This document shows positions 7,604 to 20,870 of a stretch of DNA of 35,859 nucleotides, in pieces. Made by a program: the position numbers and the translations under genes. The stretch covers positions 1 through 35,859 of the forward strand of contig CANRKB010000014.1 of assembly GCA_947631115.1 (NCBI GenBank). Direction: 5' to 3'. Position 1 is the stretch's first letter, and each line of letters begins with the position of its first letter. Under the pieces are notes generated by a model. That model searched no databases, was not told where the DNA came from, and saw only the letters and a program-made list of their open reading frames with translations. The DNA comes from an uncultured Clostridia bacterium (GTDB lineage Bacteria; Bacillota; Clostridia; Oscillospirales; Ruminococcaceae).

Positions 7604-7747
7604 CAAATTAATTTTCAACTTTTCAGCAAATTAATTTTCAACTTTTCAGCAAATTAATTTTCAACTTTTCAGCAAATTAATTTTCAACTTTTCAGCAAAT
7701 TGATTTTTGATTTTTTGAAAATTGATTTTCAACTTTTTTACAAATTG
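7604..7747. repeat. 23-bp tandem repeat, AT-rich
   Basis: The unit CAAATTAATTTTCAACTTTTCAG starts at 7604, 7627, 7650 and 7673 with essentially no change. Degenerate copies follow from 7696 to about 7747. There are no spacers, so it is not a CRISPR array. The rest of 7391-7760 is AT-rich, with one GC-rich hairpin (TTCGCGC/GCGCGAA at 7511-7527) and no gene. Confidence 0.9.
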
Positions 7748-7764
7748 CATTATAACGCCGTATC

Positions 7765-7793
7765 TTGACAATTTAGCAAAAATATGTTAAAAT
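7765..7793 (+). promoter_or_regulatory. Promoter of the 7848 DUF4430 gene
   Basis: TTGACA (7765-7770) and TAAAAT (7788-7793) are spaced by 17 bp, 55 bp before the ATG. The 7848 gene therefore need not depend on the riboswitch downstream. Confidence 0.9.
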
Positions 7794-7847: not shown

Positions 7848-8264
7848 ATGAACAAGACAAAAAAGACGATTTTGACTGTTGCGGGGGTGGTGCTGCTTGT
7901 TGCAATGCTCGCGGCAATGTGGCTGATTTATTGGTTTAACAGACCCGCCGCGAACGAAGGCACAAAGTCCGTAACGGTGAAAGTAATTTCCGAGCGCGAC
8001 AGTTATAACTTTGAAAAGCAATACGACACGGACGAGGACTTTCTCGGGGATTTCCTCGAACACGAGGGGATTATTGAATTTAACACCACTGATTACGGCA
8101 GGTTTATAACGGGCGTTATGGGCTATAAAGCGAACGACGAAGAACAGTCGTGGTGGAATATCCTCGTAGACGGAGAGTCCGTGCAAACGGGCGTTGACGA
8201 GATTGCTCTTTCAGACGGGGGAGAGTATACCTTACAGCTTGTTATCGGATATGATAATTTATAG
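7848..8264 (+). CDS. Membrane-anchored DUF4430 (transcobalamin C-terminal-like) protein
   Basis: The protein has 138 residues. An N-terminal signal-anchor helix (about 7-30) puts the rest outside the cell. A beta-rich domain of about 95 residues matches the DUF4430 pattern: VKVISERDSYNFEK, a middle stretch LGDFLEHEGIIEF, then SWWNILVDGESVQTGV and a last strand EYTLQLVIGY. DUF4430 (PF14478) is related to the C-terminal beta domain of animal transcobalamin and intrinsic factor, which caps cobalamin. There is no Cys lipobox. The ATG has AAGGTGA upstream. It lies 0.3 kb before a cobalamin riboswitch that controls two more DUF4430 proteins and an ECF transporter, so a role in corrinoid binding is plausible but inferred. 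Confidence 0.8.
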   Translation: MNKTKKTILTVAGVVLLVAMLAAMWLIYWFNRPAANEGTKSVTVKVISERDSYNFEKQYDTDEDFLGDFLEHEGIIEFNTTDYGRFITGVMGYKANDEEQSWWNILVDGESVQTGVDEIALSDGGEYTLQLVIGYDNL

Positions 8265-8510: not shown

Positions 8511-8539
8511 TTGAAATTCCCGTGCGTTTGTGATAGAAT
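8511..8539 (+). promoter_or_regulatory. Promoter of the cobalamin-riboswitch transcript
   Basis: TTGAAA (8511-8516) and TAGAAT (8534-8539) with a 17-bp spacer place a start site near 8546, about 15 bases before the aptamer. Confidence 0.85.
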
Positions 8540-8560
8540 AGTTTTACAAACGAATAAAGT

Positions 8561-8736
8561 TGATACGGTTTGAAAGGCGCATTGCCGAGTAGATGAAAAG
8601 GGAATCCGGTCGGAATCCGGAACAACCGCCATTACTGTATTTGACGAGAGCGAACGCTGTGCCATTGGTTTTGCCGAGAAGGCGCGTTCTTTGCGGCTTT
8701 GCCGCTGTGTCATAAGTCAGGAGACCTGCCGTATTA
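8561..8736 (+). promoter_or_regulatory. Cobalamin (B12) riboswitch aptamer
   Basis: The B12 box AGTCAGGAGACCTGCC (8715-8730) fits the known consensus AGYCMGGAGACCKGCC. Upstream lie the other conserved blocks in order: AAAGGGAATCCGGT, GGAATCCGG, CCGCCATTACTGTA, and GCCATTG (8661-8667) in the L5 position. The closing helix P1 can form from ATACGG (about 8563-8568) and CCGTAT (about 8729-8734). The aptamer senses a cobalamin and is expected to switch off downstream genes when the vitamin is plentiful. The expression platform lies at 8786-8891. I cannot tell adenosyl- from aquo/methylcobalamin preference by eye. Confidence 0.95.
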
Positions 8737-8785
8737 TCAGAGGTTTAACACGCTTTGGTGGGAAGAGTGCAGCCGATTTATTGCT

Positions 8786-8822
8786 TGGTGGCTTTGCACT
8801 TTTCCGAATGCAAAGTTGTTTT
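8786..8822 (+). promoter_or_regulatory. Hairpin in the riboswitch expression platform
   Basis: CTTTGCA and TGCAAAG pair around a 10-nt loop and are followed by TTGTTTTTGG. It resembles a weak terminator, or part of an antiterminator between the aptamer and the stronger hairpin at 8854. Confidence 0.5.
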
Positions 8823-8853
8823 TGGTTTAGGTTATTCGCAATAGATCTGTTGT

Positions 8854-8891
8854 ACTCTTTTGACCCTTGTGTCAAAGGAGTTTTTTGTTTG
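8854..8891 (+). terminator. Riboswitch-controlled intrinsic terminator
   Basis: ACTCTTTTGAC (8854-8864) pairs with GTCAAAGGAGT (8871-8881), an 11-bp stem with one G-U, a 6-nt loop and a following T run. It sits just before the first gene's ribosome site, so the riboswitch most likely acts by transcription termination. Confidence 0.85.
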
Positions 8892-8908
8892 TGGGAGGAG
8901 GGAAAAAA

Positions 8909-9157
8909 GTGTCGTCTGAAGAAAAGAAGTTATGGGCAACGGAACTTTTGATTCAGAAAAATAACGAGCTTGGAAGACTGCCCGCAAAGGACGATTTCGA
9001 CGAAGTCACTCGCTCCCGTATAAAAGCTTATCTCGGTCCATGGCCGCGTGCGCTTGAAGCGGCAGGATTAAAAGCTCCGAAAAAGCCCGTTCCGAAGAAA
9101 AAACGTTCGGACGGGAAAAAGCTGCCCGAAAGCAATATCTCGGGCAATAACAAATAA
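8909..9157 (+). CDS. Small protein with a homing-endonuclease-associated repeat-like domain
   Basis: The product has 82 residues from GTG 8909, chosen because AGGAGG lies seven bases upstream (8896-8901). The longer frame from 8867 would start inside the terminator hairpin. The core, about residues 5-50, has the pattern LGRLPAKDDFDE...YLGPWPRALEAAGL. It resembles the helical repeat found beside HNH homing endonucleases (PF18780) and is probably a small DNA-binding helix bundle. The tail is Lys/Pro-rich. There is no nuclease motif. It is the first gene after the B12 riboswitch terminator and lies 19 bp before the large surface protein. It may be a local regulator; that is inference. Confidence 0.75.
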   Translation: MSSEEKKLWATELLIQKNNELGRLPAKDDFDEVTRSRIKAYLGPWPRALEAAGLKAPKKPVPKKKRSDGKKLPESNISGNNK

Positions 9158-9176
9158 ACAAGGAGCATTTAGAGTA

Positions 9177-12100
9177 ATGAACAAATTAAAAAGCATATTA
9201 GCGGCAGTGGTTTCGGCTGCCGTGATGTTGACGCTGTTTCCGAAAACGGCAATTGCCGAAGAAGATCTGCTTTTAATATCCTCTCCCGAGGAGCTTAAAG
9301 CATTCGCAGAGGACGTAAACGGCGGAAACGCCTACGAGGGCAAAACAGTAAAACTTGACGCGAATATTTATCCGGAAAGTTGGACGCCGATAGGCACTTC
9401 CGAAGCGCCGTTTAAAGGAACGTTCGACGGCGGTTATCACGTTGTCGCAGGCTTGAATATTACGGGTGACAACGCGGGATTATTCGGCTATGTGGACCAG
9501 GGCGTAATTAAAAATATCGTTGTCGAGGGAGAAGTAAACGGAAACAGCGCGGCGGGCGTTGTCGGCTATCTCAACGCGGGAACTGTCGAAAACTGCGCGA
9601 ACAGGGCGACTGTTTCGGGCGGCAGCGCCGTGGGCGGCGTTGTGGGAAACGCAAGCGGCGCGTTTACCATAGACGGCTGTTTTAACGAGGGCAATATAAC
9701 GGGAACAACAGGATATGTCGGCGGCGTTGTCGGTCAGGCTTTCGGCTCGGGCAATGTAAAGAACTGTTATAATCTCGGCAATATAACGGGTCCTGCGACC
9801 GTCGGCGGCGTAGGCGGCGGTCATAAAGGCGGCAGCGCGAATTTTGAAAACTGCTTTAATATAGGCACAGTCACGGACAGCGCGGGAAATAACAACAACA
9901 TCGGCGCCGTCGTCGGAAAGACAAGAGGAGAAGTTAAGGGTTGTCAGTTTTTTGCAGTTTCGGGCGTGAATAATTACAATTACACCGAGGCGAAAACTCC
10001 CGCAGACTTTGACCTTGAACGGTTAGGAAACGCGTTTACAAATGGCGCGGAACACCCCGTTCTAAGCTGGGAAAGTAAAATAAGCGCGGAAGAATTTGTA
10101 AAGCCGAAGTATGCCGAAAAAACCGAGCTTTCGGCAGAGCTTTCGGAGTACATAAAAGCCGCGGCAAACAGCGCGAAAGCAAACGCAGGGCTTTCCGCTT
10201 CGGATAAGCTTTTCAGCAGCGAGGGCTATCTTCAGGGCGCAAGCTCTACCGCTACGGACTGGCTTGTTTTAGCTCTGGGAAGATACGGCTATTATAACGA
10301 CAACGGCGATTATGTTTATTTAATTGACGAGGGTTATGACGAATATCTTTCGGCAATGAAAAGTTATATTGAAAACACCTATGCGCAAAACGGCGGTATT
10401 CTTCACCGCGTAAAAGCCACCGAATGGCATAGAGCGGTTGTTACAATAGCGGCTCTCGGCGGCGGCCCCACCGATTTCGGAGTTTACAACGAAGCTCCTA
10501 TAGACCTTATTGCAGACGGAAGCTATAACAACTCGGATCCCGGAAAGCAGGGCATAAACGGCTGGATTTGGGGGCTTATAGCGCTTGACGCGGGGCTTTA
10601 TGATGTCCCCGCAGACGCGAAGTTTACCCGCGAACAATTTATAACCGAGATACTTTCAAGGCAGCTCACCGACGGCGTAAACGGAAACGAATACGGCGGC
10701 TGGGTATTGGCGGGTTACGGCGCAAATTCGGACGTTGATATTACGGCTATGGCAATTCAGGCTCTCGCGCCTTATTACAATGACGAAACGGTCTACACCT
10801 ACACCAACGGCAACAGCAAGAAAGAGGTTTCAAAGACCGTGCGCGAGGCGGTAGACGAAGCGCTTGAAGTCCTTTCGGCGAAAATGGACGAAAACGGAAC
10901 GTTTTCTTCTTGGGGAACAAACAACGTCGAGGGCGTTTCGCAGGTGCTTGTGGCGCTTTGCAGCTTAGGCATTGACCCCGCAAAGGACGAAAGGTTCATG
11001 ACTGACAGCCAAAAGACCATTCTTGACGGCGTTTTGAAATTCCGTTTAAGCGACGGCGGTTTCTGCCATGACATAGGCGGCGGCTGGAACTCTATGGCGA
11101 ACGACCAAGCGACCTACGCGCTGGTGTCCTATTGGAGATTTGAAAGCGGAATGAGAGCGCTTTATGATATGCGCGATGATTTCACCGAAAGCGACAGAGC
11201 GGCAATAGAAAGGGCGGTTGAGACGATTAACGCCGTTCCCGCTCCTACGGATAAAAACTACAAAGCAAGTTTAAAAGCGGCTCTTGCAGAATTCAGAGCG
11301 GTAGAAGAAAGCGAGCGCAGGTATGTAAGCAATTACTCGGCGCTTGCAAAGGCGATTGAGCTTGTCGGCGGGGAAGACGCGCTCGACAGCGACGAAGCGT
11401 ATATTATTTCAATTTCCGTCAGCAAAGCTCCCGACAAGGTAAATTATCTTGAGGGCGAAATTTTCGACCCCGCGGGAATGACCGTTGTCGCAGTCTACAG
11501 CGACGGTACGGAAAAGCCCATCGATGATTACAAAATAACTCCCTCCGGAGAACTTGCCTTAGGCGACAGCGAGGTTTATATCACTTATGGAAATCTCAAA
11601 GCTAAGATAGACATAACCGTGTCGGAAAAATTCCCCTGGAGCGGCGAGGGTACGGAAAATTCTCCTTATCTTATAGAAAGCGCGGACGACCTTTCAGCCC
11701 TTGCGGATCGCGTAAACGGAAAAAAGAGCACGGAGGGCATGTACTTTGCTTTGACGGGTAATATTGACCTTAGCAATATAGAAAATTGGAAGCCCATAGG
11801 CGCTTCTTCAAGTTCTAATTTTAACGGCATATTTGACGGGCGGGGCTTTGCAATTGACAATCTTTATTCAACGCAGGGCGGTCTGTTCGGCTATGTCGGA
11901 AACGGCGCGGTTATCAAGAATGTCGGCGTTGCAAGCGGCGAAATAAACTGCAAGTCAAGCTTTGTCGGAGGAATTGTCGGCTGGAGCAACGGCGCGGACA
12001 TAATCAACTGTTGGAACGGCTTGGACATAACCGCGAGCGGCTACAGCGGCGGAATTGTCGGAACAGTTCGCGACGGAGAGAGCGTTATAAGCGGCTGTTA

Positions 12101-12995
12101 TAATGTCGGCAATTTAACGTCAACAGGCTCGACCGTCGGCGGAATTGTCGGACATCTCGCGGCAAACGTAGAAGTGACCGTGGAAAATTGTTATAACGCG
12201 GGAAGCGTTTCGGGGAAAAACAACGTCGGCGGCATAGCGGGTCAGATACAGGACGGACACGCCGTAAAGAACTGTTATAACATCGGGAAGATCATCTCCG
12301 ACAGCGAAAGCGCGGGAGGAATAATCGGCTATGCCACCCGCAAAAACGAAGTAACAGACGCTTATTTTGAAAAAGGCTCTGCAAGCGCGGGCATAGGCTA
12401 TAACGGCGACGAGACCGTTATTATTGCAGTAGAAAAGACAGCGGACGAAATGCAATCCGACGAACTTTTAAACCTCCTCGGAGAGGCGTTTAAGAAAGAC
12501 GGCTACGGGCTTGTAAACGGCGGTTATCCCATTCTTATCTGGCAGAACACCGAGCAAGCGGACGAAATAAACGCCGCGGCAGAAAAGATAGCGGCGATAG
12601 GCGAGGTAACTCTCGACAGCGAACAAGCAATAGCCGAAGCAAGAGCGGCATACGACGCGCTTGACGATGACCTTAAAGCGCTTGTGAGAAACTACGCTCT
12701 GCTTGAAGAAGCGGAAAAGAAGCTCGCGGAGCTGAAGAAGCCCGCTGAAAGCGAACCGGGCGAGAGTGAACCTAGCGAAAGCGAACCTAGCGAGAGCGAA
12801 CCTAGCGAGAGCGAACCTAGCGAGAGTGAACCTACTGAAAGTGAACCTAGCGAGAGCGAGCCGACTGAAAGCGAACCCGGCGCTCCGAGCGAAGAACAGC
12901 CCGACACGGGCGCGACAGCGGCGCTTCCTCTCTTTATCGCGGCAATAAGCCTTGCGGCAGTTGCGGCGGCAGGGAAAAGAAAAAACGTTAAGTAA
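9177..12995 (+). CDS. Cell-wall surface protein: GLUG repeats, alpha/alpha-toroid domain, Ig-like domain, sortase tail
   Basis: This 1272-residue secreted protein has a signal peptide at 1-27. GLUG-type repeats follow (about 60-300; GGVVG and NCYNLGNITG motifs). A helical domain at about 315-690 looks like the prenyltransferase/squalene-oxidase alpha-alpha barrel, with KATEWHR, PTDFGVYN, GINGWIWGLIALD, DVDITAMAIQALAPYYN and LSDGGF. Then come an Ig-like segment (about 741-818), more GLUG repeats (about 820-1058), a short helical part, an SEPSE linker (about 1189-1235), QPDTG, a hydrophobic helix and KRKNVK. The tail is a sortase signal with Gln for Leu. The toroid is the fold of the N-terminal half of transcobalamin. 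Terpene-cyclase DxDD motifs are absent. With the B12 riboswitch upstream I infer corrinoid capture at the wall. The RBS AAGGAGC fits the ATG. Confidence 0.85.
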   Translation: MNKLKSILAAVVSAAVMLTLFPKTAIAEEDLLLISSPEELKAFAEDVNGGNAYEGKTVKLDANIYPESWTPIGTSEAPFKGTFDGGYHVVAGLNITGDNAGLFGYVDQGVIKNIVVEGEVNGNSAAGVVGYLNAGTVENCANRATVSGGSAVGGVVGNASGAFTIDGCFNEGNITGTTGYVGGVVGQAFGSGNVKNCYNLGNITGPATVGGVGGGHKGGSANFENCFNIGTVTDSAGNNNNIGAVVGKTRGEVKGCQFFAVSGVNNYNYTEAKTPADFDLERLGNAFTNGAEHPVLSWESKISAEEFVKPKYAEKTELSAELSEYIKAAANSAKANAGLSASDKLFSSEGYLQGASSTATDWLVLALGRYGYYNDNGDYVYLIDEGYDEYLSAMKSYIENTYAQNGGILHRVKATEWHRAVVTIAALGGGPTDFGVYNEAPIDLIADGSYNNSDPGKQGINGWIWGLIALDAGLYDVPADAKFTREQFITEILSRQLTDGVNGNEYGGWVLAGYGANSDVDITAMAIQALAPYYNDETVYTYTNGNSKKEVSKTVREAVDEALEVLSAKMDENGTFSSWGTNNVEGVSQVLVALCSLGIDPAKDERFMTDSQKTILDGVLKFRLSDGGFCHDIGGGWNSMANDQATYALVSYWRFESGMRALYDMRDDFTESDRAAIERAVETINAVPAPTDKNYKASLKAALAEFRAVEESERRYVSNYSALAKAIELVGGEDALDSDEAYIISISVSKAPDKVNYLEGEIFDPAGMTVVAVYSDGTEKPIDDYKITPSGELALGDSEVYITYGNLKAKIDITVSEKFPWSGEGTENSPYLIESADDLSALADRVNGKKSTEGMYFALTGNIDLSNIENWKPIGASSSSNFNGIFDGRGFAIDNLYSTQGGLFGYVGNGAVIKNVGVASGEINCKSSFVGGIVGWSNGADIINCWNGLDITASGYSGGIVGTVRDGESVISGCYNVGNLTSTGSTVGGIVGHLAANVEVTVENCYNAGSVSGKNNVGGIAGQIQDGHAVKNCYNIGKIISDSESAGGIIGYATRKNEVTDAYFEKGSASAGIGYNGDETVIIAVEKTADEMQSDELLNLLGEAFKKDGYGLVNGGYPILIWQNTEQADEINAAAEKIAAIGEVTLDSEQAIAEARAAYDALDDDLKALVRNYALLEEAEKKLAELKKPAESEPGESEPSESEPSESEPSESEPSESEPTESEPSESEPTESEPGAPSEEQPDTGATAALPLFIAAISLAAVAAAGKRKNVK
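12743..12885 (+). repeat. 15-bp coding tandem repeat (SEPSE linker)
   Basis: About nine units of GAGAGCGAACCTAGC encode SEPSE/SEPTE. The linker spaces the binding domains from the sortase anchor. The near-identical units suggest length changes by slippage or recombination. Confidence 0.85.
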
Positions 12996-13046
12996 AGGCT
13001 GAAACAAGGTCTTTCCCGCTCAAAGGTTTTTCCACAATTTAAGAAC

Positions 13047-13322
13047 TTCCCCGCTCAAAACAACTTTTAGGATTGCCTTTTCAAAGCACGGCTTTGAAAA
13101 GGCAATGCGGGGAAAACTCTTGTTTTCCCCGCACCCCAGGTTCAATGCCATAGGCATTTAACCTGATGCGCTTTTGAGCGTTTGCGGGGACTCCGTCCCC
13201 GCACCCCTGCCAGAGGGCAAAAATTTTTTGAAAAAAATTTTTTCCCTCTGGACTCCCTTTTCAAAAAACTTTTGCGCGTCGCTCGTTTGGCGGTTTTAAA
13301 CGAAACGCGGTTCGCCGCTCAA
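13047..13322 (+). repeat. Family A modular palindromic repeat, copy 2
   Basis: It has the same hairpin order as copy 1: H1 13072-13106, H2 13107-13132, H3, a variant H4 and H5. Compared with copy 1, H2 carries GCGGGG...CCCCGC instead of GTGGGG...CCCCAC, a compensated change. It lies between the two large surface-protein genes, inside the riboswitch-controlled cluster. It accounts for most of the gap 12996-13353. Confidence 0.85.
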
Positions 13323-13353
13323 AAAAGCTTCTTACATTTCAGAGGTGATATTA

Positions 13354-16300
13354 TTGACCAAGAAAATTATCGCGCTTTTGCTCTGCGCTTTGTGCTTTAT
13401 CGGCGCTTTAACTTTCCCCTCTTTCGCCGCCGCAGGTCCTGTTATTGAAACCACCCTCGCCGACAACATGACCCTCTCGGGCAGCAAAAAGACCTTCGAC
13501 GTCTTTGCCCGAAACTCCTCGGGCGAGAAAATAAAGGCTGTCGTAAAGCTTAACGGCGAAACTTTAACTCCAACTTGGGACGACACCGACAAAGCAAGCT
13601 ACACCCTCCGCTTCACAAAAGAGGGCGAAAATATCGTCACCGTTTCCGCCACTTCCGACGGCGGAAAGAAAACCGAACTCACCTACCACATAACCTACCG
13701 CAAAGCCGCGCAGGGCGAAGCAATAGGTTCGGCGGTCTGGAGCGTGGAGCTGTTTACCGTCGGCGGCGGGTATCTTGTATATCCCGCCGAAATGCCGATC
13801 TACGAGGGCGAAACCGCAGCCGAACAGCTCATAAGGCTTCTCGCTGAAAACGGCTATGTCGGATATTACAGCGGAACTCCAAAGCAGAGCTTTTATCTCG
13901 GCTATATCGCCGACGGCGCTTCTCAAAACGAAAAGTACGACAATTATCAGAAAAGCTCCTCTCCGAAAGCCCCTAAAAGTCTTAACATAAAGACCGCTGT
14001 TCCCGAAATATTAAAGCCGTATCTCAAAAACACAATGACCTTCTTTGACGAGAGCGATTACGAGAAAAATTGGTTAGGCTATATTGGCGAATTTGTTTAC
14101 ACAAACGGCTCGGGCTGGATGTATTCGGTAAACAACCTCTTTCCGAATGTCGGCTTTTCGGACGAATACCTCTCGGACGGAGACGTCGTGAGAGTGCAGT
14201 TTACTTTGGGTTACGGCGCGGACATCGGCGGGCTTGGCGCTCTCGGAAACGGCGGTTTTTCGGGGAGCGGCGACATGCCCGAAAGCGGTTATTTTAAAGT
14301 CGCGGACAAGGACGACCTCACCGCGCTTATCGCAAAGGCGCGCGCCTCGGGGCTGCTTGACAGGGCGAATGTGAACAAGGCTTATCAAAACGCGCTTTCC
14401 GCCGCGCAGACTTTAGACGCTTCTCAGTCGGCTGTTGACAGCGCCTTAGGCGCTCTTTCAAACGCCCTTTTCTCGCCCGATAGTTCAAGTTCTTCAAGCT
14501 CTGTTTCAAGTTCAAGCTCTGCGGCAAGCTCCGTTCAGAGTTCGGCTTCAAGTTCAAGCTCGGCGGCAACTTCCGTTCAAAGTTCGGCTTCAAGTTCGAT
14601 TTCAAGTTCCGTTCAGAGTTCAAGTCCGGTTTCAAGCTCGGAGAGCAAATCGGCGCTTGAAATTGCCGAGGGCATTATAAATTGGAAGAAAACAGGCTCG
14701 GACAGCTTTCTTTTAAACAACTCGTTTCTGGAGCTTGCGGGCTCGACCGCGGGCGACTGGTATCCTATCGGGCTTTCAAGGCTCGGAAAGGACGATAATT
14801 TCGGCGGGTATCTTGCGGTATTAAAGGACAATGTGGAAGCGCGCTATAAGGAACAAGGAAAGCTAAGCTCGGCAAAAGCCACCGAATGGCACAGAATAGC
14901 CCTCGCGGTGCTTGCGGCGGGCGGCGACCCAACCGATTTCGGAGTTTACAACGGACAGCCCATAGACCTTATTGCCGACGGCGTTTATGACCGAGGGAAA
15001 ACGACTTCTCTCGGCAGGCAGGGTATAAACGGCTGGATCTGGGGGCTTATCGCTCTGGACAGCAAGCGTTATGAAATCCCCGAAAACGCTTATTATACCC
15101 GCGAGGATATTATAAAGGAAATTCTCGCTCAGCAGCTTTCGGACGGCGGCTTTGCCTTAAGCGGAAAAAACGCCGACCCCGATATAACCGCAATGGCTCT
15201 GCAGGCGCTTTCCCCTTATTACAACAGCGAAAAGCGCTATTCTTACACCTTGAAGTCCACGGGCGAAGAAGTGGAAAAGACGGTGCGCGAGGTCGCGGAC
15301 GGGGCGGTAGAGTGCCTGTCGGAACTGCAGCTCGGCACGGGGGATTTTAAGAGCTGGGGCACGGAAAATGTCGAAAGCACGGACCAGGTGCTTGCGGCGC
15401 TTTGCTGTTTAGGCATTGACCCGCTGAAAGACGAAAGGTTTATAAAGAACGGAAACACGCTTCTTGACGGTATCCTTAAATACAAAATGTCGGACGGCGG
15501 TTTTGCACATTCGTTTACATTCGACCCCGAAAATCCCGCTGCCGTTCCGAACAGCTCGAACTCAATGGCGGGCGAACAGACGCTTTATACAATGGCGGCG
15601 CTTTGGAGATTTGAAAACAACATGCGGAGGCTTTACGACTTCCGCCCCGAGCAGAGCGAAACGCTTAAAGAGCGGATTTCCCTGCTTGAATCGGGCATTT
15701 CGGAGATAACCGAAGATACGGACAGCGAAACGCTCGAAAGGCTTTTGACCGCGTTTTATTCGCTCCCCGAAAACGAAAGAAGCTATGTGGACGGATATTG
15801 GAAATTGTCCGACATGGCGAGGAAAAAGGGAATCGACATTGAGCAAATTGCGGAAAGCGCCGTTGTTGAAACCTTTGAAGAAAACAACGGGGAAACGGAA
15901 GACGTAATTTTTTCGGAAAGCGACAAGAGAACTGCCGAAGCCCTGCCGCAAAAGCTGACAACGGAGCAGTATGTGACGGTTACGGCGCTTCTAGACAAGC
16001 TGGAGCGCTCCAAAGACTTTGAGGGCAAGGCGCGGTATCTGGAAAAACTGACCAAAGCGAAAGCGGAAATTGCCGCTGTACAGAGCGAGATCGACAGCAT
16101 TAACGGCGAAATCTTAGAAAAGCTCTATCCCTATGACAGCATAACGCTTTCCGACAAGAAAACGGTCGATGAAATTTACGCGCGGTATGAAGCCCTGAGC
16201 GAATACGACAGGACGAAAATAACGGGAAGCGACGACCTCGTTAAGACCAAAACAAAGCTGGATAACATTCTTCGGGGGATAATAATCGCCGTTGTCCTCG

Positions 16301-16410
16301 GCGTTATCGCTATTATAACAGCCGTTCTTCTTATTTTAAGAATCCGCAGGCGCCGCAGAAAAAAGGAACGCGAAATGGAAGAATTGGCTCAGAGGTACGA
16401 GGACGAGTGA
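13354..16410 (+). CDS. Membrane-anchored surface protein with DUF4430 and alpha/alpha-toroid domains
   Basis: About 1018 residues from TTG 13354. AGAGGTG lies just upstream; a GTG at 13345 overlaps that site and is less likely. A signal peptide ends near FPSFAAAG. An Ig-like segment is followed by a DUF4430 domain (about 150-300) ending GSGWMYSVNNLFPNVGF and VVRVQFTLGYGAD. A short helical repeat and a Ser-rich linker (about 379-435) follow. A toroid domain (about 440-770) is closely related to that of the previous gene: KATEWHR, PTDFGVYNGQPIDLIADG, GINGWIWGLIALD, DPDITAMALQALSPYYN. A coiled helical region, one membrane helix (about 976-1000) and an Arg/Lys-rich cytosolic end close it. The domains are in reverse order to transcobalamin (barrel then beta). 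Likely a corrinoid-binding protein fixed to the membrane. Confidence 0.85.
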   Translation: MTKKIIALLLCALCFIGALTFPSFAAAGPVIETTLADNMTLSGSKKTFDVFARNSSGEKIKAVVKLNGETLTPTWDDTDKASYTLRFTKEGENIVTVSATSDGGKKTELTYHITYRKAAQGEAIGSAVWSVELFTVGGGYLVYPAEMPIYEGETAAEQLIRLLAENGYVGYYSGTPKQSFYLGYIADGASQNEKYDNYQKSSSPKAPKSLNIKTAVPEILKPYLKNTMTFFDESDYEKNWLGYIGEFVYTNGSGWMYSVNNLFPNVGFSDEYLSDGDVVRVQFTLGYGADIGGLGALGNGGFSGSGDMPESGYFKVADKDDLTALIAKARASGLLDRANVNKAYQNALSAAQTLDASQSAVDSALGALSNALFSPDSSSSSSSVSSSSSAASSVQSSASSSSSAATSVQSSASSSISSSVQSSSPVSSSESKSALEIAEGIINWKKTGSDSFLLNNSFLELAGSTAGDWYPIGLSRLGKDDNFGGYLAVLKDNVEARYKEQGKLSSAKATEWHRIALAVLAAGGDPTDFGVYNGQPIDLIADGVYDRGKTTSLGRQGINGWIWGLIALDSKRYEIPENAYYTREDIIKEILAQQLSDGGFALSGKNADPDITAMALQALSPYYNSEKRYSYTLKSTGEEVEKTVREVADGAVECLSELQLGTGDFKSWGTENVESTDQVLAALCCLGIDPLKDERFIKNGNTLLDGILKYKMSDGGFAHSFTFDPENPAAVPNSSNSMAGEQTLYTMAALWRFENNMRRLYDFRPEQSETLKERISLLESGISEITEDTDSETLERLLTAFYSLPENERSYVDGYWKLSDMARKKGIDIEQIAESAVVETFEENNGETEDVIFSESDKRTAEALPQKLTTEQYVTVTALLDKLERSKDFEGKARYLEKLTKAKAEIAAVQSEIDSINGEILEKLYPYDSITLSDKKTVDEIYARYEALSEYDRTKITGSDDLVKTKTKLDNILRGIIIAVVLGVIAIITAVLLILRIRRRRRKKEREMEELAQRYEDE

Positions 16411-16469
16411 GTAAAAGCCGGCTAAACGGTTATTTTTCCCGCTCTATCGTAATTACACATCAAAGGCGG

Positions 16470-16668
16470 TTCCCCGCTCAAAACCTCTTTTAGGATTGCC
16501 TTTTCAAAGCACGGCTTTGAAAAGGCAATGCGGGGAAAACTCTTGTTTTCCCCGCACCCTTTAGCGCCTTTGAAGCGGATTGCGGGGGCTTTGCCCCCGC
16601 GCCCCCACCAAAGGGCGCAATGCGCCCTTTGGAAACCCATATACCGCGCCTTACGGCGCGGTCGGAAA
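16470..16668 (+). repeat. Family A modular palindromic repeat, copy 3 (different module set)
   Basis: H1 (16494-16528) and H2 (16529-16554) are kept. H3 is missing and H4 is TGCGGGGGC/GCCCCCGC. H5 is replaced by CCAAAGGGCGC/GCGCCCTTTGG, and a new hairpin ACCGCGCC/GGCGCGGT is added. It lies between two cluster genes (gap 16411-16689). Confidence 0.85.
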
Positions 16669-16689
16669 GAGGAAAAGTAGACGATTATC

Positions 16690-17247
16690 ATGAAAAAAGA
16701 TCTTCTCGCCCTTCTGGGCATTATCCTGATTATCGCCGTTATAATCAACGGCACGGAAATTCAGTCCGTCGACGAGTATTACCTCACCCATATCGACGAC
16801 ATAACCCCCGAAAGCGAAACCGTTTTTATAACCATACGCTGCGATACCATTCTCGACAACTTAGACGCCCTCGACGAAAATCTCCGCGAGTTCGTACCGC
16901 CCGACGGCGTTATCCTCCCGAAAACGGAATACGTCCTCAGAAACGGCGACACCGTCTTTGACATTCTCGACAGAGCCGTCAGATACAACAAAATTCAAAT
17001 GGAATACCAGGGCGCAAAGCAAAACAGCTTCGGAAGCGTCTATATTCAGGGCATAAACTTCCTCTACGAGTTTTCCTGCGGTCCGCTTTCGGGCTGGATG
17101 TACCGCGTGGACGGGGAATTTCCAAATTACGGCTGCTCTAAATACGAGCTTAAAGACGGTCAGAGCATTGAATGGATATACACCTGCGACTTGGGTCGGG
17201 ACGTCGGCGCAGAATGGTTCAACAACCTTGGAGGTCAGAATAAATGA
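16690..17247 (+). CDS. Membrane-tethered DUF4430 protein coupled to the ECF transporter
   Basis: The 185-residue protein has an N-terminal helix (about 5-22), best read as a signal anchor because no lipobox Cys is seen. The extracellular domain of about 130 residues matches DUF4430: a strand VFITIRCDTI, a helical part GDTVFDILDRAVRYN, and the hallmark SGWMYRVDGEFPNYG with the last strand SIEWIYTCDLGRDVG. It is related to the DUF4430 part of the 13354 protein. Its stop overlaps the EcfT start (ATGA), so it is translated with the transporter. It probably hands substrate from the large surface proteins to the S component. That role is inferred from linkage and the riboswitch. Confidence 0.85.
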   Translation: MKKDLLALLGIILIIAVIINGTEIQSVDEYYLTHIDDITPESETVFITIRCDTILDNLDALDENLREFVPPDGVILPKTEYVLRNGDTVFDILDRAVRYNKIQMEYQGAKQNSFGSVYIQGINFLYEFSCGPLSGWMYRVDGEFPNYGCSKYELKDGQSIEWIYTCDLGRDVGAEWFNNLGGQNK

Positions 17248-18125
17248 AAGCTTTTTCCGATTATCACCCTCTTGTCCTGCTTGTTTACTTTTTGTCGGTT
17301 CTTGTAGCGGCAATGTTTGTAAACAACCCCGTTATCGGGCTTCTGGCGCTGCTTGGCGGGATATTGTTCTGTATCATGCTCTCAAAGCGCAGCGAAGCCG
17401 CGGGGAATATCGGCTTTTACGCGCCGCTGTTTTTTATGGTGGCAATCACAAACCCCCTCTTTTCCCATAACGGCGTAACGCCGCTGTTTTTCCTAAACGG
17501 AAACCCCGTCACGGTCGAAGCGTTTGCATACGGCGCTGCAATCGCGGTCATGGTGATAGGGGTAATGATGTGGTGTAAATGCTACAGCGCTGTAATGACA
17601 AGCGACAAGTTCCTTTATCTTTTCGGAAAGGCTGTCCCGAAACTCTCGCTCGTCCTCTCAATGGCGCTCAGGTTTATACCTATGTTCAAGCGGCAGACGC
17701 ACAAAGTGAGCCGCGCGCAGAAATCAATGGGCTTGTATTCTTCAAAAAGTTTTATTGACAAGATAAAAAGCTCAATGAGGGTGTTTATGGCTATGCTCTC
17801 GTGGTCGCTTGAAAATTCAATTGAAACATCGGCGTCAATGAAAGCGCGGGGCTATGGCCTAAAAGGCAGAACGAACTTTTCGCTGTTCAGGTTTTATCCG
17901 CGGGACGGGGTGTTGCTTTCGGTTTGCGCGGTTCTTCTCGGAGTTACCGTTGCGGGCATTATAACGGGCGATACGGCGTTTTATTACTACCCGAGGATAA
18001 GCGAACTTACGTTCACGCCGCTTGCTGTAGCGGTTTACGCGGCGTTCGGGATAATGTCGTTTTTGCCGTTTATGATAGAAGTTAAGGAGGCTTTAAAGTG
18101 GAAATACTACATATCGAAAATTTAA
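17244..18125 (+). CDS. ecfT: ECF transporter transmembrane component T
   Basis: EcfT of 293 residues is the membrane scaffold that couples the two ATPases to the S component. It has several hydrophobic helices in the first 110 residues, then a long cytosolic helical region. The conserved Ala-Arg-Gly motif appears in SMKARGYGLKGRT, and the coupling region includes FIPMFKRQTHKVSRAQ. One or two more helices end the protein. The gene overlaps the upstream DUF4430 gene by 4 bp and the downstream ATPase gene by 28 bp, so the set is one translational unit. Confidence 0.93.
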   Translation: MKAFSDYHPLVLLVYFLSVLVAAMFVNNPVIGLLALLGGILFCIMLSKRSEAAGNIGFYAPLFFMVAITNPLFSHNGVTPLFFLNGNPVTVEAFAYGAAIAVMVIGVMMWCKCYSAVMTSDKFLYLFGKAVPKLSLVLSMALRFIPMFKRQTHKVSRAQKSMGLYSSKSFIDKIKSSMRVFMAMLSWSLENSIETSASMKARGYGLKGRTNFSLFRFYPRDGVLLSVCAVLLGVTVAGIITGDTAFYYYPRISELTFTPLAVAVYAAFGIMSFLPFMIEVKEALKWKYYISKI

Positions 18126-19777
18126 CTTTCACTTATCCCAAAACAAAAAAGCCCGCGATTGAAAACATTGACCTAAAGATAAACAGCGGAGAATTTACGG
18201 TAATTTGCGGACAGTCTGGCTGCGGGAAAACGACGCTTTTAAAGCTCCTTAAAAAAGAACTCGCTCCCGCGGGCGAAAAAAGCGGAAAGATATTTTACTG
18301 CGGCGTTTTGCAGGAAGAACTCCCCGATAAAAAGAGCGCAAGCGAGATAGGCTATGTTCTGCAAAACCCCGACAGCCAGATAGTAACGGACAAGGTCTGG
18401 CACGAGCTTGCGTTCGGGCTTGAAAACTTAGGCGTGCCGACCGAGGTAATAAGGCGGCGCGTAGGCGAAATGGCGAGCTATTTCGGAATACAGGATTGGT
18501 TCAGGAAAAAGACCGACGAGCTTTCGGGCGGGCAGAAGCAGCTTTTAAACTTGGCTTCGGTCATGGTAATGCAGCCTCGGATACTTATCCTCGACGAGCC
18601 GACAAGCAGGCTCGACCCCATAGCCGCAACGGATTTTATTTCAACGCTCCAAAAACTCAACCGCGAGCTGGGGCTTACGGTAATTATCGCGGAACACCGC
18701 CTCGAAGAGGTTTTTCCGATTGCCGACAAAGCGGTGGTTATGGACGGCGGGAAGATAATCGCAGGCGGCGCGCCGAGGGAGATAGGCGAAAAGCTGTCCG
18801 AAATAAATAAAGAACACCCGATGTTTTTCGGGCTTCCGAGCGCCGTTCGTATCTACAACGCGCTGGGGATAGAGGACAGTTGCCCCCTTACCGTAAGAGA
18901 GGGCAGAGCCTTTCTCGAAAAGCATTTTTCCCCCGAAGCGGAGCTTGAAATGTTAAGCGAATATAAACATAGCGAAACCGTAGCGATAGAAATGAAAAAC
19001 GCTTGGTTCAGGTATGAAAAAGACATGCCCGATATTTTAAGAGGGACGAGCCTTAAAGTTTACGGCGGGGAGATCTACTGTATTCTCGGCGGCAACGGCG
19101 CGGGAAAGACAACGGCGCTGAATGTGATCTCGGGACTTGAAAAGGCATACAGAGGGAAGATAATCATAAACGGAAAGCCGATAAAAGACTACAAGGGCAA
19201 CTCGCTTTACAGAAAGCTCCTTGCGCTTTTGCCGCAGGAGCCGCAGACGGTGTTTATAAAAGACAGCGTCAGAGAAGACCTTTGGGATATGCTCGAAATT
19301 CTGGAAATTCCGAAAGCCGAGCGCGAAAAGAAGATAGCCGAAATTTCGCAAAAGCTGGGAATAACCGAGCTTTTGGACAAGCACCCCTATGACCTGAGCG
19401 GCGGCGAACAGCAAAAATGCGCTATTGCGAAGATACTGATGTCCGAGCCGAAGATACTGCTGCTTGACGAGCCGACAAAAGGGCTTGACGCGTTTTCAAA
19501 GCTTAATCTCAAAAAACTTCTGCGCGGACTTAAACAAGAGAGAATGACGATCATAATAGTAACGCACGATGTTGAATTTGCGGGAGAAACGGCGGACCGC
19601 TGCGCGCTGTTTTTTGACGGGGAGATATTGTCGGCGGACATTCCCGAGAGATTTTTTTCGGAGAACAATTTTTATACCACCGCCGCAAACCGTATGGCAA
19701 GAGGGCTTTGGAAATACGCGGTGACCTGCGGACAGGTGGTTGAAAAATGTAAGGAAAGCAAAGGAGAAGCGACATGA
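18098..19777 (+). CDS. ECF transporter ATPase, fused EcfA1-EcfA2
   Basis: The 559-residue protein carries two complete ABC ATPase domains in one chain. Domain 1 has Walker A GQSGCGKTT, signature LSGGQKQ, Walker B RILILDEPTSRLDP and switch His in IIAEHRLEEV. Domain 2 (from about residue 290) has GGNGAGKTT, LSGGEQQK, KILLLDEPTKGLDA and IIVTHDVEFA. Both look catalytically competent. In the ECF family two ATPases drive import through EcfT and a substrate-specific S component; fusion of the two is a known variant. The GTG start at 18098 lies within ecfT and has AAGGAGG seven bases upstream. The stop overlaps the S-component ATG. Confidence 0.95.
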   Translation: MEILHIENLTFTYPKTKKPAIENIDLKINSGEFTVICGQSGCGKTTLLKLLKKELAPAGEKSGKIFYCGVLQEELPDKKSASEIGYVLQNPDSQIVTDKVWHELAFGLENLGVPTEVIRRRVGEMASYFGIQDWFRKKTDELSGGQKQLLNLASVMVMQPRILILDEPTSRLDPIAATDFISTLQKLNRELGLTVIIAEHRLEEVFPIADKAVVMDGGKIIAGGAPREIGEKLSEINKEHPMFFGLPSAVRIYNALGIEDSCPLTVREGRAFLEKHFSPEAELEMLSEYKHSETVAIEMKNAWFRYEKDMPDILRGTSLKVYGGEIYCILGGNGAGKTTALNVISGLEKAYRGKIIINGKPIKDYKGNSLYRKLLALLPQEPQTVFIKDSVREDLWDMLEILEIPKAEREKKIAEISQKLGITELLDKHPYDLSGGEQQKCAIAKILMSEPKILLLDEPTKGLDAFSKLNLKKLLRGLKQERMTIIIVTHDVEFAGETADRCALFFDGEILSADIPERFFSENNFYTTAANRMARGLWKYAVTCGQVVEKCKESKGEAT

Positions 19778-20448
19778 AGAAATGGCTCTCTTACGGAATA
19801 TTATGCCTGCTTATACCTGCGGTAATAATAGGCGGGGCGCTTTTGTTCGGCGACAGGCAGTATGCGTGGATAAGTCTATGCGTGGCGGTTTTTTCCTGCG
19901 TGCCGTTTTTTATTCGGTTTGAGAAAAGCGCGACGGACATAAAAAGGCTTGTGCTTTTAGCGGTAATGGTGGCGCTTTCGGTGGTGGGGAGAATAATTTT
20001 CACGCCCATTCCGGGATTTAAGCCTGTGACGGCGTTTGTTATCATAACGGCGATGTATTTCGGGAGCGAAGCGGGATTTCTGACGGGAGCGCTGTCGGCG
20101 GTGATTTCGAATTTTTATTTCGGGCAGGGACCGTGGACGCCGTTTCAGATGTTCAGCTGGGGAATGATAGGGCTGTTGGCGGGGCTGTTTGCGGAGATAC
20201 TGAAAAAGAACAAGCTGGTTTTATGCATATTCGCGGTGGTATCGGGAGTGTTGTATTCGTTGCTTATGGACGTGTGGACGGTACTTTGGGCGGACGGTTT
20301 TTTCAATATTGAGCGGTATCTTGCGGCAATAATTTCCTCAATGCAGTTTACGCTGATTTATGCGGTATCGAACCTGATTTTCCTGTTATTGTTTGCAAAG
20401 CCGATAGGGAAAGTCCTGGAGAGGGTAAAGGAGAAGTACGGTATCTAG
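19774..20448 (+). CDS. ECF transporter S component, probably corrinoid-specific
   Basis: This 224-residue very hydrophobic protein has about six to seven helices. The pattern VGRIIFTPIPGFKPVTAFVI followed by GSEAGFLTGALSAVISNFYFGQGPWTPFQMFSWG is typical of S components; the small-residue face packs on EcfT. It overlaps the ATPase gene (ATGA). Location downstream of a B12 riboswitch, next to DUF4430 and toroid proteins, argues for cobalamin or a precursor such as cobinamide, comparable to the CbrT-type systems predicted by regulon analysis. The substrate is inferred. The stop TAG falls in the first CTAGAGG repeat unit. Confidence 0.88.
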   Translation: MKKWLSYGILCLLIPAVIIGGALLFGDRQYAWISLCVAVFSCVPFFIRFEKSATDIKRLVLLAVMVALSVVGRIIFTPIPGFKPVTAFVIITAMYFGSEAGFLTGALSAVISNFYFGQGPWTPFQMFSWGMIGLLAGLFAEILKKNKLVLCIFAVVSGVLYSLLMDVWTVLWADGFFNIERYLAAIISSMQFTLIYAVSNLIFLLLFAKPIGKVLERVKEKYGI

Positions 20449-20602: not shown

Positions 20603-20870
20603 TTGAGCGGCGAAGCGCTTTCCCATTCAAGCCACCAACCGGGCGGCGGCGCAAAAGTTTTTTGAAAGGGGAGTCCAGAGGGGAAAAATTTTTTTCAAAA
20701 AATTTTTCCCCTCTGGTCGCGGCGAAGCCGCGAAACGGCGCAAGCCAGCGCTAAAGGGTTTGGGGAAAACAAGAGTTTTCCCCAATTTTCCGTTTCAAAT
20801 GCTTGCATTTGAAACGGAAAACCGCTGGAGGGGGAGCGGGGGAACCGGCAGGTTCCCTCCGCGGTTTGGT
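20518..20870 (-). repeat. Family A modular palindromic repeat, copy 4 (reverse)
   Basis: In reverse order it holds H5 (CCAGAGGGG/CCCCTCTGG around an A/T core), GCGGC/GCCGC, and H2 as TTGGGGAAAAC/GTTTTCCCCAA. A lengthened H1 follows (TTTTCCGTTTCAAATGC/GCATTTGAAACGGAAAA). A duplicated block GAGCGGCGAAGCGCTTT starts it. The 20449-21332 gap (884 bp) contains only repeats and no gene. Confidence 0.8.

Follow-up and report, generated by a model that had tools for sequence, protein, structure and literature searches.

A probable corrinoid-scavenging operon with transcobalamin-type surface domains and a CbrT-like ECF importer in an uncultured Clostridia bacterium

Overview

The stretch of DNA analysed here, hereafter denoted the window, comprises 35,859 nucleotides from an uncultured Clostridia bacterium and is contig C14 of an assembly of 2.06 Mb in 60 contigs (96% complete). 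It carries an operon in which a cobalamin riboswitch, a small HNH_repeat open reading frame (ORF), three genes for surface proteins (genes 1–3), and the genes for the EcfT, EcfA and S components of an energy-coupling factor (ECF) transporter all lie on the + strand (Table 1), in the single direction that an earlier note on this DNA had described. As a whole the operon is best explained as a system for scavenging corrinoids (vitamin B12), an assignment that we regard as very probable; that its role lies in corrinoid uptake is held with slightly greater confidence still. Corrinoid capture and import are very likely because of the combination of the riboswitch, a CbrT-like S component, a beta domain of the transcobalamin type, relatives in which barrel and beta domain are fused, the co-occurrence of these elements in other genomes, and the presence of a MetH-like gene.

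Beta domains of the transcobalamin type

Genes 2 and 3 each contain a DUF4430 domain (PF14478); the match in gene 3 covers the entire model (E 6.1e-19), and that in gene 2 covers only its second half (positions 33–71 of 72; E 7.5e-7). The two DUF4430 domains previously noted are therefore both present, but a third, in a small gene at 7848–8264, had been overlooked; these three are the DUF4430 domains found in the genome, all within the window. Together with hydrophobic segments at the N- or C-termini, the PF14478 matches indicate beta-grasp domains of the transcobalamin clade in surface proteins.

A profile was built from 19 of the 40 DUF4430 domains in the first 21 loci of the survey described below, with half-model domains of the gene 2 type left out. 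Its best matches among PDB sequences are transcobalamin-2 (5no0, E 2.3e-5; 4zrp, 7qbf and 2bb5, E 3.6e-4); among the 35 hits at E ≤ 1 there are more transcobalamins (0.021, 0.086 and 0.24), with unrelated proteins appearing from 0.2. This agrees with the earlier identification of DUF4430 as a transcobalamin-type beta domain. It also tells against an alternative in which the ECF transporter alone imports the corrinoid, with the barrels and DUF4430 domains binding something else (wall sugars, for example) or being structural, which we consider unlikely, although the GLUG and Big_3 repeats of gene 1 are in keeping with it.

Barrel domains and their anchoring

The toroid was seen in single-protein Pfam scans of gene 1 (E 0.061) and gene 2 (E 0.013), in both cases below the cut-off. 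Homologous barrels give a clearer picture, with 61 of 81 (82 non-redundant barrels minus L094) matching PF00432 (Prenyltrans) at E ≤ 1, the best at 1.9e-11. For this reason an alpha/alpha-toroid fold is, as judged from sequence profiles, well supported for the barrels, and the description of genes 1 and 2 as two toroid surface proteins, weak for each protein singly, is upheld by their homologues.

In the alignment of the 81 barrels, D177 and D179 are present in 80, H288 in 80 and Q311 in 81. At the position that follows D179, 80 barrels have I, V, L or M and one has T, and D is never found; the sequence DxD, then a hydrophobic residue, then T is kept in nearly all, and DxDD occurs anywhere in the sequence in two. 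DxDD is the catalytic motif of class II terpene cyclases, and this motif is absent at the aligned site, since the position after D179 is never D. These observations bear on the idea of the barrel as an enzyme, either similar to terpene cyclases or one that modifies corrinoids, and not as a binder. In sequence the barrel is nearest to class II cyclases, and the conservation of DxD with the following hydrophobic residue and T would suit such a role; signal peptides and anchors, however, place the barrel outside the cell, which together with the missing DxDD leads us to judge an enzymatic function very improbable.

Transmembrane and signal segments were called by hydrophobicity only. Gene 1 has a C-terminal tail (PDTG-hydrophobic-basic) whose sequence we read as resembling a sortase signal, and gene 2 ends in a transmembrane segment (residues 979–997) followed by a basic tail. 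A further barrel protein in Desulfosporosinus sp. PR (L076, 13052–15064) has CWB2 cell-wall-binding repeats, which from their sequence may be an alternative way of fixing a barrel to the wall; its gene stands before a second pair of EcfT and EcfA genes.

Split and fused arrangements in relatives

Within the window there is no single chain that has a barrel first and then a beta domain: the genes are split, and gene 2 runs from beta domain to barrel. In 21 distinct relatives (516–605 residues), by contrast, a match to the gene 2 barrel is followed by a match to gene 3 on a single chain, and these lend weight to the split and permuted layout, relative to the animal protein, that the earlier note had pointed out. 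A 22nd candidate (L075) has the gene 2 match only, and several contigs appear twice in the list of fused proteins, under two locus names. The alignment of fused proteins can be read as a signal peptide, barrel, linker, transmembrane segment, short basic stretch, second transmembrane segment and beta domain, such that the fused relatives appear to join the end of gene 2 to the start of gene 3. In L093 the identity is 44% over the gene 2 barrel and 60% over gene 3, where the similarity extends to the stretch that links membrane and beta domain, and genes for EcfT, EcfA and an S component come next after the fused gene.

Barrel before beta, as in the fused relatives, is the domain order of the animal proteins. 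Conversely, the beta and barrel parts of gene 2 are two separate genes in three genomes (G002, G005 and G009). As both fusions and fissions of the same pieces occur, the barrel and beta pieces are expected to work together.

In four same-genus loci (L048, L050, L051 and L052) the pair of DUF4430 and barrel-DUF4430 genes is followed by a gene of about 500 residues with a hydrophobic N-terminus (Table 1). The two of these that were scanned, from L048 and L051, have no Pfam match at E ≤ 0.01.

The ECF importer and a probable need for corrinoid

The three genes that follow gene 3 match PF02361 (EcfT), TIGR04520 (double EcfA) and PF07155 (S component), as the earlier note had read them. Against PDB sequences the S component has 6fnp_A as its best match (E 3.4e-16), with 4hzu_S next at E 0.056; a profile of 12 S components, chosen from 37 ORFs with an S match, again places 6fnp first (5.5e-16, then 6.2e-4). 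Of the solved S components, CbrT is the nearest to the protein. NCBIfam taken by itself would have pointed to folate, through a TIGR04518 match whose 36.6 bits fall short of the cut-off (60).

6FNP is ECF-CbrT of Lactobacillus delbrueckii, which transports cobalamin and cobinamide, and whose CbrT prediction is credited to Rodionov 2009 as cited in that work (PMC5997447). In proteoliposomes the purified complex transports cobalamin without surface partners (PMC5997447), a point in favour of an ECF transporter that acts alone. That CbrT accepts cobalamin and cobinamide alike (PMC5997447) also leaves room for a ligand other than B12 itself, namely cobinamide, another cobamide or a lower-ligand base; we regard this as a possibility, albeit on the unlikely side, against which no specific observation speaks beyond the class of the riboswitch (see below).

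A MetH-like gene of the genome encodes a homocysteine-methyltransferase domain, a pterin-binding domain and a pair of B12-binding domains, on a piece that is open at its 5′ end. Because this B12-dependent gene is present, the bacterium, to judge by its gene content, most likely requires corrinoid. Neither CbiD, the sole biosynthesis marker searched for, nor a FecCD-type permease, the type to which BtuC belongs, was found in the genome at its 96% completeness.

The leader region

A promoter-like site lies directly upstream of the cobalamin riboswitch aptamer, which at 83.6 bits far exceeds the gathering score of RF00174 (31.5 bits) and is the sole cobalamin riboswitch match found in the whole genome. 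The B12 box, AGTCAGGAGACCTGCC, is read in the sequence at 8715–8730, the position previously assigned to it, and the terminator, given in the earlier note as 8854–8891, resolves into a stem at 8854–8881 and the T run that follows. In RNAfold predictions for 8549–8895 and for 8730–8895, the 5′ arm of the terminator is captured by a long alternative hairpin at approximately 8761–8862, and the leader is thus predicted to have the usual antiterminator arrangement. By script criteria, a terminator lies 66–138 nt 3′ of the aptamer in 13 of 23 loci tested, the window among them. The aptamer match, the terminator and the predicted antiterminator together sustain the proposal of cobalamin control. Riboswitches of this class respond to cobalamins, the one general point against the alternative ligands raised above.

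Between the riboswitch terminator and gene 1 sits the small HNH_repeat gene, which the earlier note had overlooked; the mechanical ORF that contains it begins at 8867. Homologues occupy the interval between the riboswitch and the first barrel or DUF4430 gene in 17 other distinct loci, including L039, and one further homologue occurs in L067, where the upstream DNA is cut off. The protein is possibly a DNA-binding regulator.

Co-occurrence in other loci and genomes

A scan of named genomes gave 63 loci from 80 stretches matching the pattern. Most are from metagenome-assembled genomes of Clostridia, many labelled Lapin (taken as rabbit) or with other gut sample names, although Anaerovorax sp. 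IOR16, Desulfosporosinus sp. PR and Lysinibacillus alkalisoli are included; several of the loci are the same contigs as among the 60 relatives considered below. Thirteen loci were left out of the riboswitch count since their upstream DNA is cut off or was not examined. Riboswitches were matched to loci through their contig numbers and positions, with unclear cases rescanned. A cobalamin riboswitch over the gathering score lies upstream of 35 of the 50 examinable loci. Of the 63 loci, 33 have both EcfT and EcfA, and in 30 the barrel, DUF4430 and EcfT genes are consecutive. In L039, outside the set of 50, the cobalamin riboswitch is replaced by one of the AdoCbl-II class (38.7 bits, against a cut-off of 36.5). 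In viral contigs, two stretches matched the pattern for close relatives, neither of which was confirmed.

Taken together, 61 genomes (this one and 60 relatives) carry 46 riboswitches, 27 of them with a DUF4430 domain on the same strand within 10 kb downstream, and in those genomes with a riboswitch 41 of 54 DUF4430 domains lie within 10 kb downstream of a riboswitch on the same strand; the DUF4430 count includes two domains (in G001 and G041) just below the Pfam cut-off. Ten of the 61 have a detected cobalamin riboswitch and no DUF4430. A phylum sample of 159 genomes contains 50 that carry DUF4430, and at least 36 of their 111 domains, in at least 17 of the 50 genomes, lie within 10 kb behind a riboswitch. 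For the 28 phylum genomes with a listed riboswitch, the figure is 36 of 66 domains, compared with 7 of 66 that have a riboswitch within 10 kb in the other orientation or downstream. The mere joint presence of DUF4430 and riboswitch was rejected as a measure, as it does not discriminate: 148 of the 159 phylum genomes carry a riboswitch, and for that reason only adjacency is informative. Two of 14 control genomes, those of Lactococcus lactis and Methanosarcina acetivorans, gave a DUF4430 match, and both lie outside the eight controls with a cobalamin riboswitch match.

Evidence that weighs against the assignment

Several observations count against a B12-scavenging system built on transcobalamin-type domains. 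By sequence, the barrels appear closest to toroids of the squalene-cyclase type, a point that also favours the transporter-alone alternative: the 81-barrel profile, with 45 PDB sequences matched at E ≤ 10, picks up squalene-hopene cyclases but no transcobalamin, the 22 PDB matches of a 24-barrel profile at E ≤ 1 likewise include squalene-hopene cyclases, next to other alpha/alpha toroids, but again no transcobalamin, and a profile of the fused proteins has no transcobalamin among its 52 PDB matches at E ≤ 1. For a special kinship of the barrel with the animal alpha domain the sequences give no more than a hint. PF01122, the Pfam model of the eukaryotic cobalamin-binding family, has no match at E ≤ 0.1 in either barrel protein of the window and matches just four of the 81 barrels at E ≤ 1; the best of these, L097 (1.8e-5, 24.3 bits; cut-off 25), matches PF00432 more strongly (7.1e-7). 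A search of 45 genomes with PF01122 gave seven matches at E ≤ 1, three of them in the barrel genes of L097, L089 and L098 (direct barrel matches at 1.8e-5, 0.059 and 0.21, respectively) and four outside barrel loci. One genome-search match is over the cut-off, only with its neighbours in frame, and the Bacillus subtilis control likewise gave a match below it.

The genomic association is incomplete. In fifteen of the 50 examinable loci no riboswitch reaches the threshold, although one of them, L085, has a possible sub-threshold match of 25.8 bits with fitting coordinates and an unconfirmed contig number, and another, L083, has a sub-threshold match approximately 5 kb further upstream. L045, which has beta, barrel-beta and ECF genes and lies outside the set of 50, has no riboswitch in 20 kb. 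DUF4430 is present with no detected cobalamin riboswitch in 16 of the 61 genomes and with no riboswitch match in 6 of the 50 DUF4430 genomes of the phylum sample; DUF4430 is thus not linked to B12 everywhere. The locus counts are, moreover, not independent, because they come largely from related metagenome-assembled genomes, many from one study. The absence of CbiD and of a FecCD-type permease rests on an incomplete (96%) assembly.

Finally, none of 11 same-genus loci with a fused protein shows ECF genes in its 4–20 kb of sequence. The corresponding arrangement bears in the opposite direction on the alternative of an ECF transporter acting alone: in same-genus stretches a riboswitch stands directly before the pair of DUF4430 and barrel-DUF4430 genes with no ECF genes in the stretch, and cobalamin therefore appears to control the surface proteins on their own.

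A proposed mechanism

The mechanism that we favour for corrinoid scavenging begins at the leader which, when cellular cobalamin is low, would adopt the antiterminator form and allow transcription of the operon, whilst bound cobalamin would lead to formation of the terminator. The barrel of gene 1 would be located on the cell wall, where it may concentrate corrinoid. Most likely the gene 2 barrel and the gene 3 beta domain are two halves of a split transcobalamin, since in about 20 relatives they form one protein, barrel then beta. This membrane-bound pair would clasp the corrinoid at the membrane's outer surface, possibly in a sandwich geometry, and then release it to the CbrT-like S component, by which the dedicated ECF importer would carry it across the membrane. 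A histidine of the alpha7/alpha8 loop binds cobalt in rat transcobalamin (PMC11107200); in a split transcobalamin, H288 of the barrel (80 of 81 barrels) is a putative counterpart that would take the part of this cobalt-binding residue.

These proposals are not of equal standing. That the corrinoid is clasped between the gene 2 barrel and the gene 3 beta domain is, on the evidence of the sequences, rather probable, whereas a relay from wall to membrane by way of gene 1 is a tentative suggestion. More tentative again is the combined picture, for Gram-positive gut bacteria, of a split transcobalamin assembled by its ligand, with barrel and beta domain each held in the membrane by a helix of its own, delivery from the wall by gene 1 and hand-off to a CbrT-type component, in which the animal B12 carriers descend from such bacteria.

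Other features of the window

The coordinates of all features are given in Table 1. Gene 2, placed by the earlier note at 13354, is present, although we read its start as 13345. Upstream of the riboswitch unit, the gene for a small DUF4430 protein at 7848–8264 has a promoter-like site of its own (7765–7793), and it is uncertain whether it belongs to the B12 system; its best PDB match is 3u7z (E 1.2e-16), followed by transcobalamins at 0.11 and 0.15. A stand-alone DUF4430 gene is found upstream of the riboswitch in the same arrangement in G005. A similar stand-alone domain in G033 is on a different contig (C80), and L038 12642–12815 is listed alongside the window gene as a stand-alone DUF4430 site. 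Tandem repeats with a unit like AAATTAATTTTCAACTTTTCAGC occupy the intergenic region at approximately 7605–7725, before the upstream DUF4430 gene.

Table 1. Positions of features in the window and, in the last row, in related loci
Feature	Position	Strand	Evidence or remark
Small membrane-anchored DUF4430 protein, upstream of riboswitch unit	7848..8264	+	E 3.6e-9
Promoter-like site, TTGAAA-17-TAGAAT, TG before -10	8511..8539	+	10/12 consensus matches; consensus match only
Cobalamin riboswitch aptamer (RF00174)	8549..8747	+	83.6 bits, E 2.3e-19
Predicted antiterminator hairpin, limits approximate	8761..8862	+	RNAfold minimum-energy leader structure; prediction only
Intrinsic terminator stem, then T run	8854..8881	+	Sequence
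Small HNH_repeat ORF (PF18780), 82 residues, GTG at 8909	8909..9157	+	E 1.1e-9
Gene 1, secreted: GLUG repeats, alpha/alpha-toroid (residues 360–665), Big_3, Glu/Ser/Pro-rich tract	9177..12995	+	
Gene 2: signal peptide, DUF4430 (residues 244–293), Ser-rich linker, alpha/alpha-toroid (residues 470–766)	13345..16410	+	
Gene 3: N-terminal transmembrane anchor, DUF4430/transcobalamin-type beta domain (residues 86–171)	16690..17247	+	
EcfT (CbiQ family) transmembrane subunit	17244..18125	+	PF02361 E 1.2e-10
Fused double EcfA ATPase	18098..19777	+	TIGR04520 374 bits (cut-off 315), two stretches
S component, CbrT-like	19774..20448	+	PF07155 E 3.1e-15
Terminator-like hairpin 3′ of S component gene, 11 pairs	20760..20785	+	Consensus match only
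Gene of about 500 residues in same-genus loci	L048 11637-13178; L050 7409-8905; L051 2767-4263; L052 7245-8807		

Comparison with known systems

The main idea is not new. The earlier note knew of no characterised Gram-positive system of this layout, a claim of novelty that was too strong, as Burroughs et al. 2007 (PMC1796856) had already predicted B12-scavenging systems of this kind; among open-licence articles in PubMed Central, no experimental study of such a bacterial protein was found. In their account, bacterial surface proteins, secreted and then anchored, join an SLBB beta domain (transcobalamin-clade beta-grasp) to an alpha/alpha toroid, in either order; the operons hold CbiO and CbiQ and a second beta paralogue, and their owners usually lack B12 synthesis. 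B12 scavenging was proposed, with binding itself a prediction, and animal transcobalamin was suggested to derive from such bacterial proteins (PMC1796856).

The window resembles these systems in its DUF4430 surface proteins, in the toroid joined to or beside them, and in its CbiO- and CbiQ-like genes. It differs from the published account (PMC1796856), the main text of which does not contain the word riboswitch, in its cobalamin riboswitch, CbrT-type S component and small HNH_repeat gene, in a separate barrel-only protein of the wall type, and in having the barrel and the C-terminal beta domain as separate genes. The present analysis adds the riboswitch survey, the CbrT assignment, the relation between split and fused forms, the lone wall barrel and the conserved small HNH_repeat gene.

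ECF-CbrT of L. delbrueckii contains the best solved relative of the window's S component (6FNP, E 3.4e-16), and both systems have a module of EcfT and ATPases. In L. delbrueckii the gene cluster is nrdJ-cbrS-cbrT-pduO and the ECF module is shared among S components (PMC5997447), whereas the operon of the window has a dedicated T component, a fused double A component and barrel/beta surface proteins. In Lacticaseibacillus rhamnosus a protein is annotated as 'Additional lipoprotein component of putative cobalamin ECF transporter', and a DUF4430 protein, which may or may not be the annotated one, is mentioned there as the product of a gene next to rtpR (PMC9963975). PDB 3U7Z (RUMGNA_00854), a stand-alone bacterial DUF4430 protein deposited as a putative metal binding protein, is a relative of the protein encoded at 7848–8264.

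B12 capture at a bacterial surface is known in gut Bacteroides, where BtuG and BtuH capture B12 before the transporter (PMC6143338, PMC8941943), a function analogous to that proposed here. BtuG and BtuH are, however, Gram-negative proteins, and the paper on BtuH states that no structural homologue of its binding domain is known; the window offers a Gram-positive candidate that is under riboswitch control and has an importer of the CbrT type. The relatives suited to tests, apparently isolates, are Anaerovorax sp. IOR16, Desulfosporosinus sp. PR and Lysinibacillus alkalisoli.

Compared with animal transcobalamin, intrinsic factor and haptocorrin, the window has a homologous beta domain by profile, and its fused relatives have the same order of barrel and beta domain; in contrast to the animal carriers, the proteins of the window are anchored to membrane or wall and split over several genes, and the kinship of their barrel to the alpha domain is weakly visible. 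As the fused relatives share the domain order of the animal proteins, the 2007 proposal of a bacterial origin for animal transcobalamin becomes testable.

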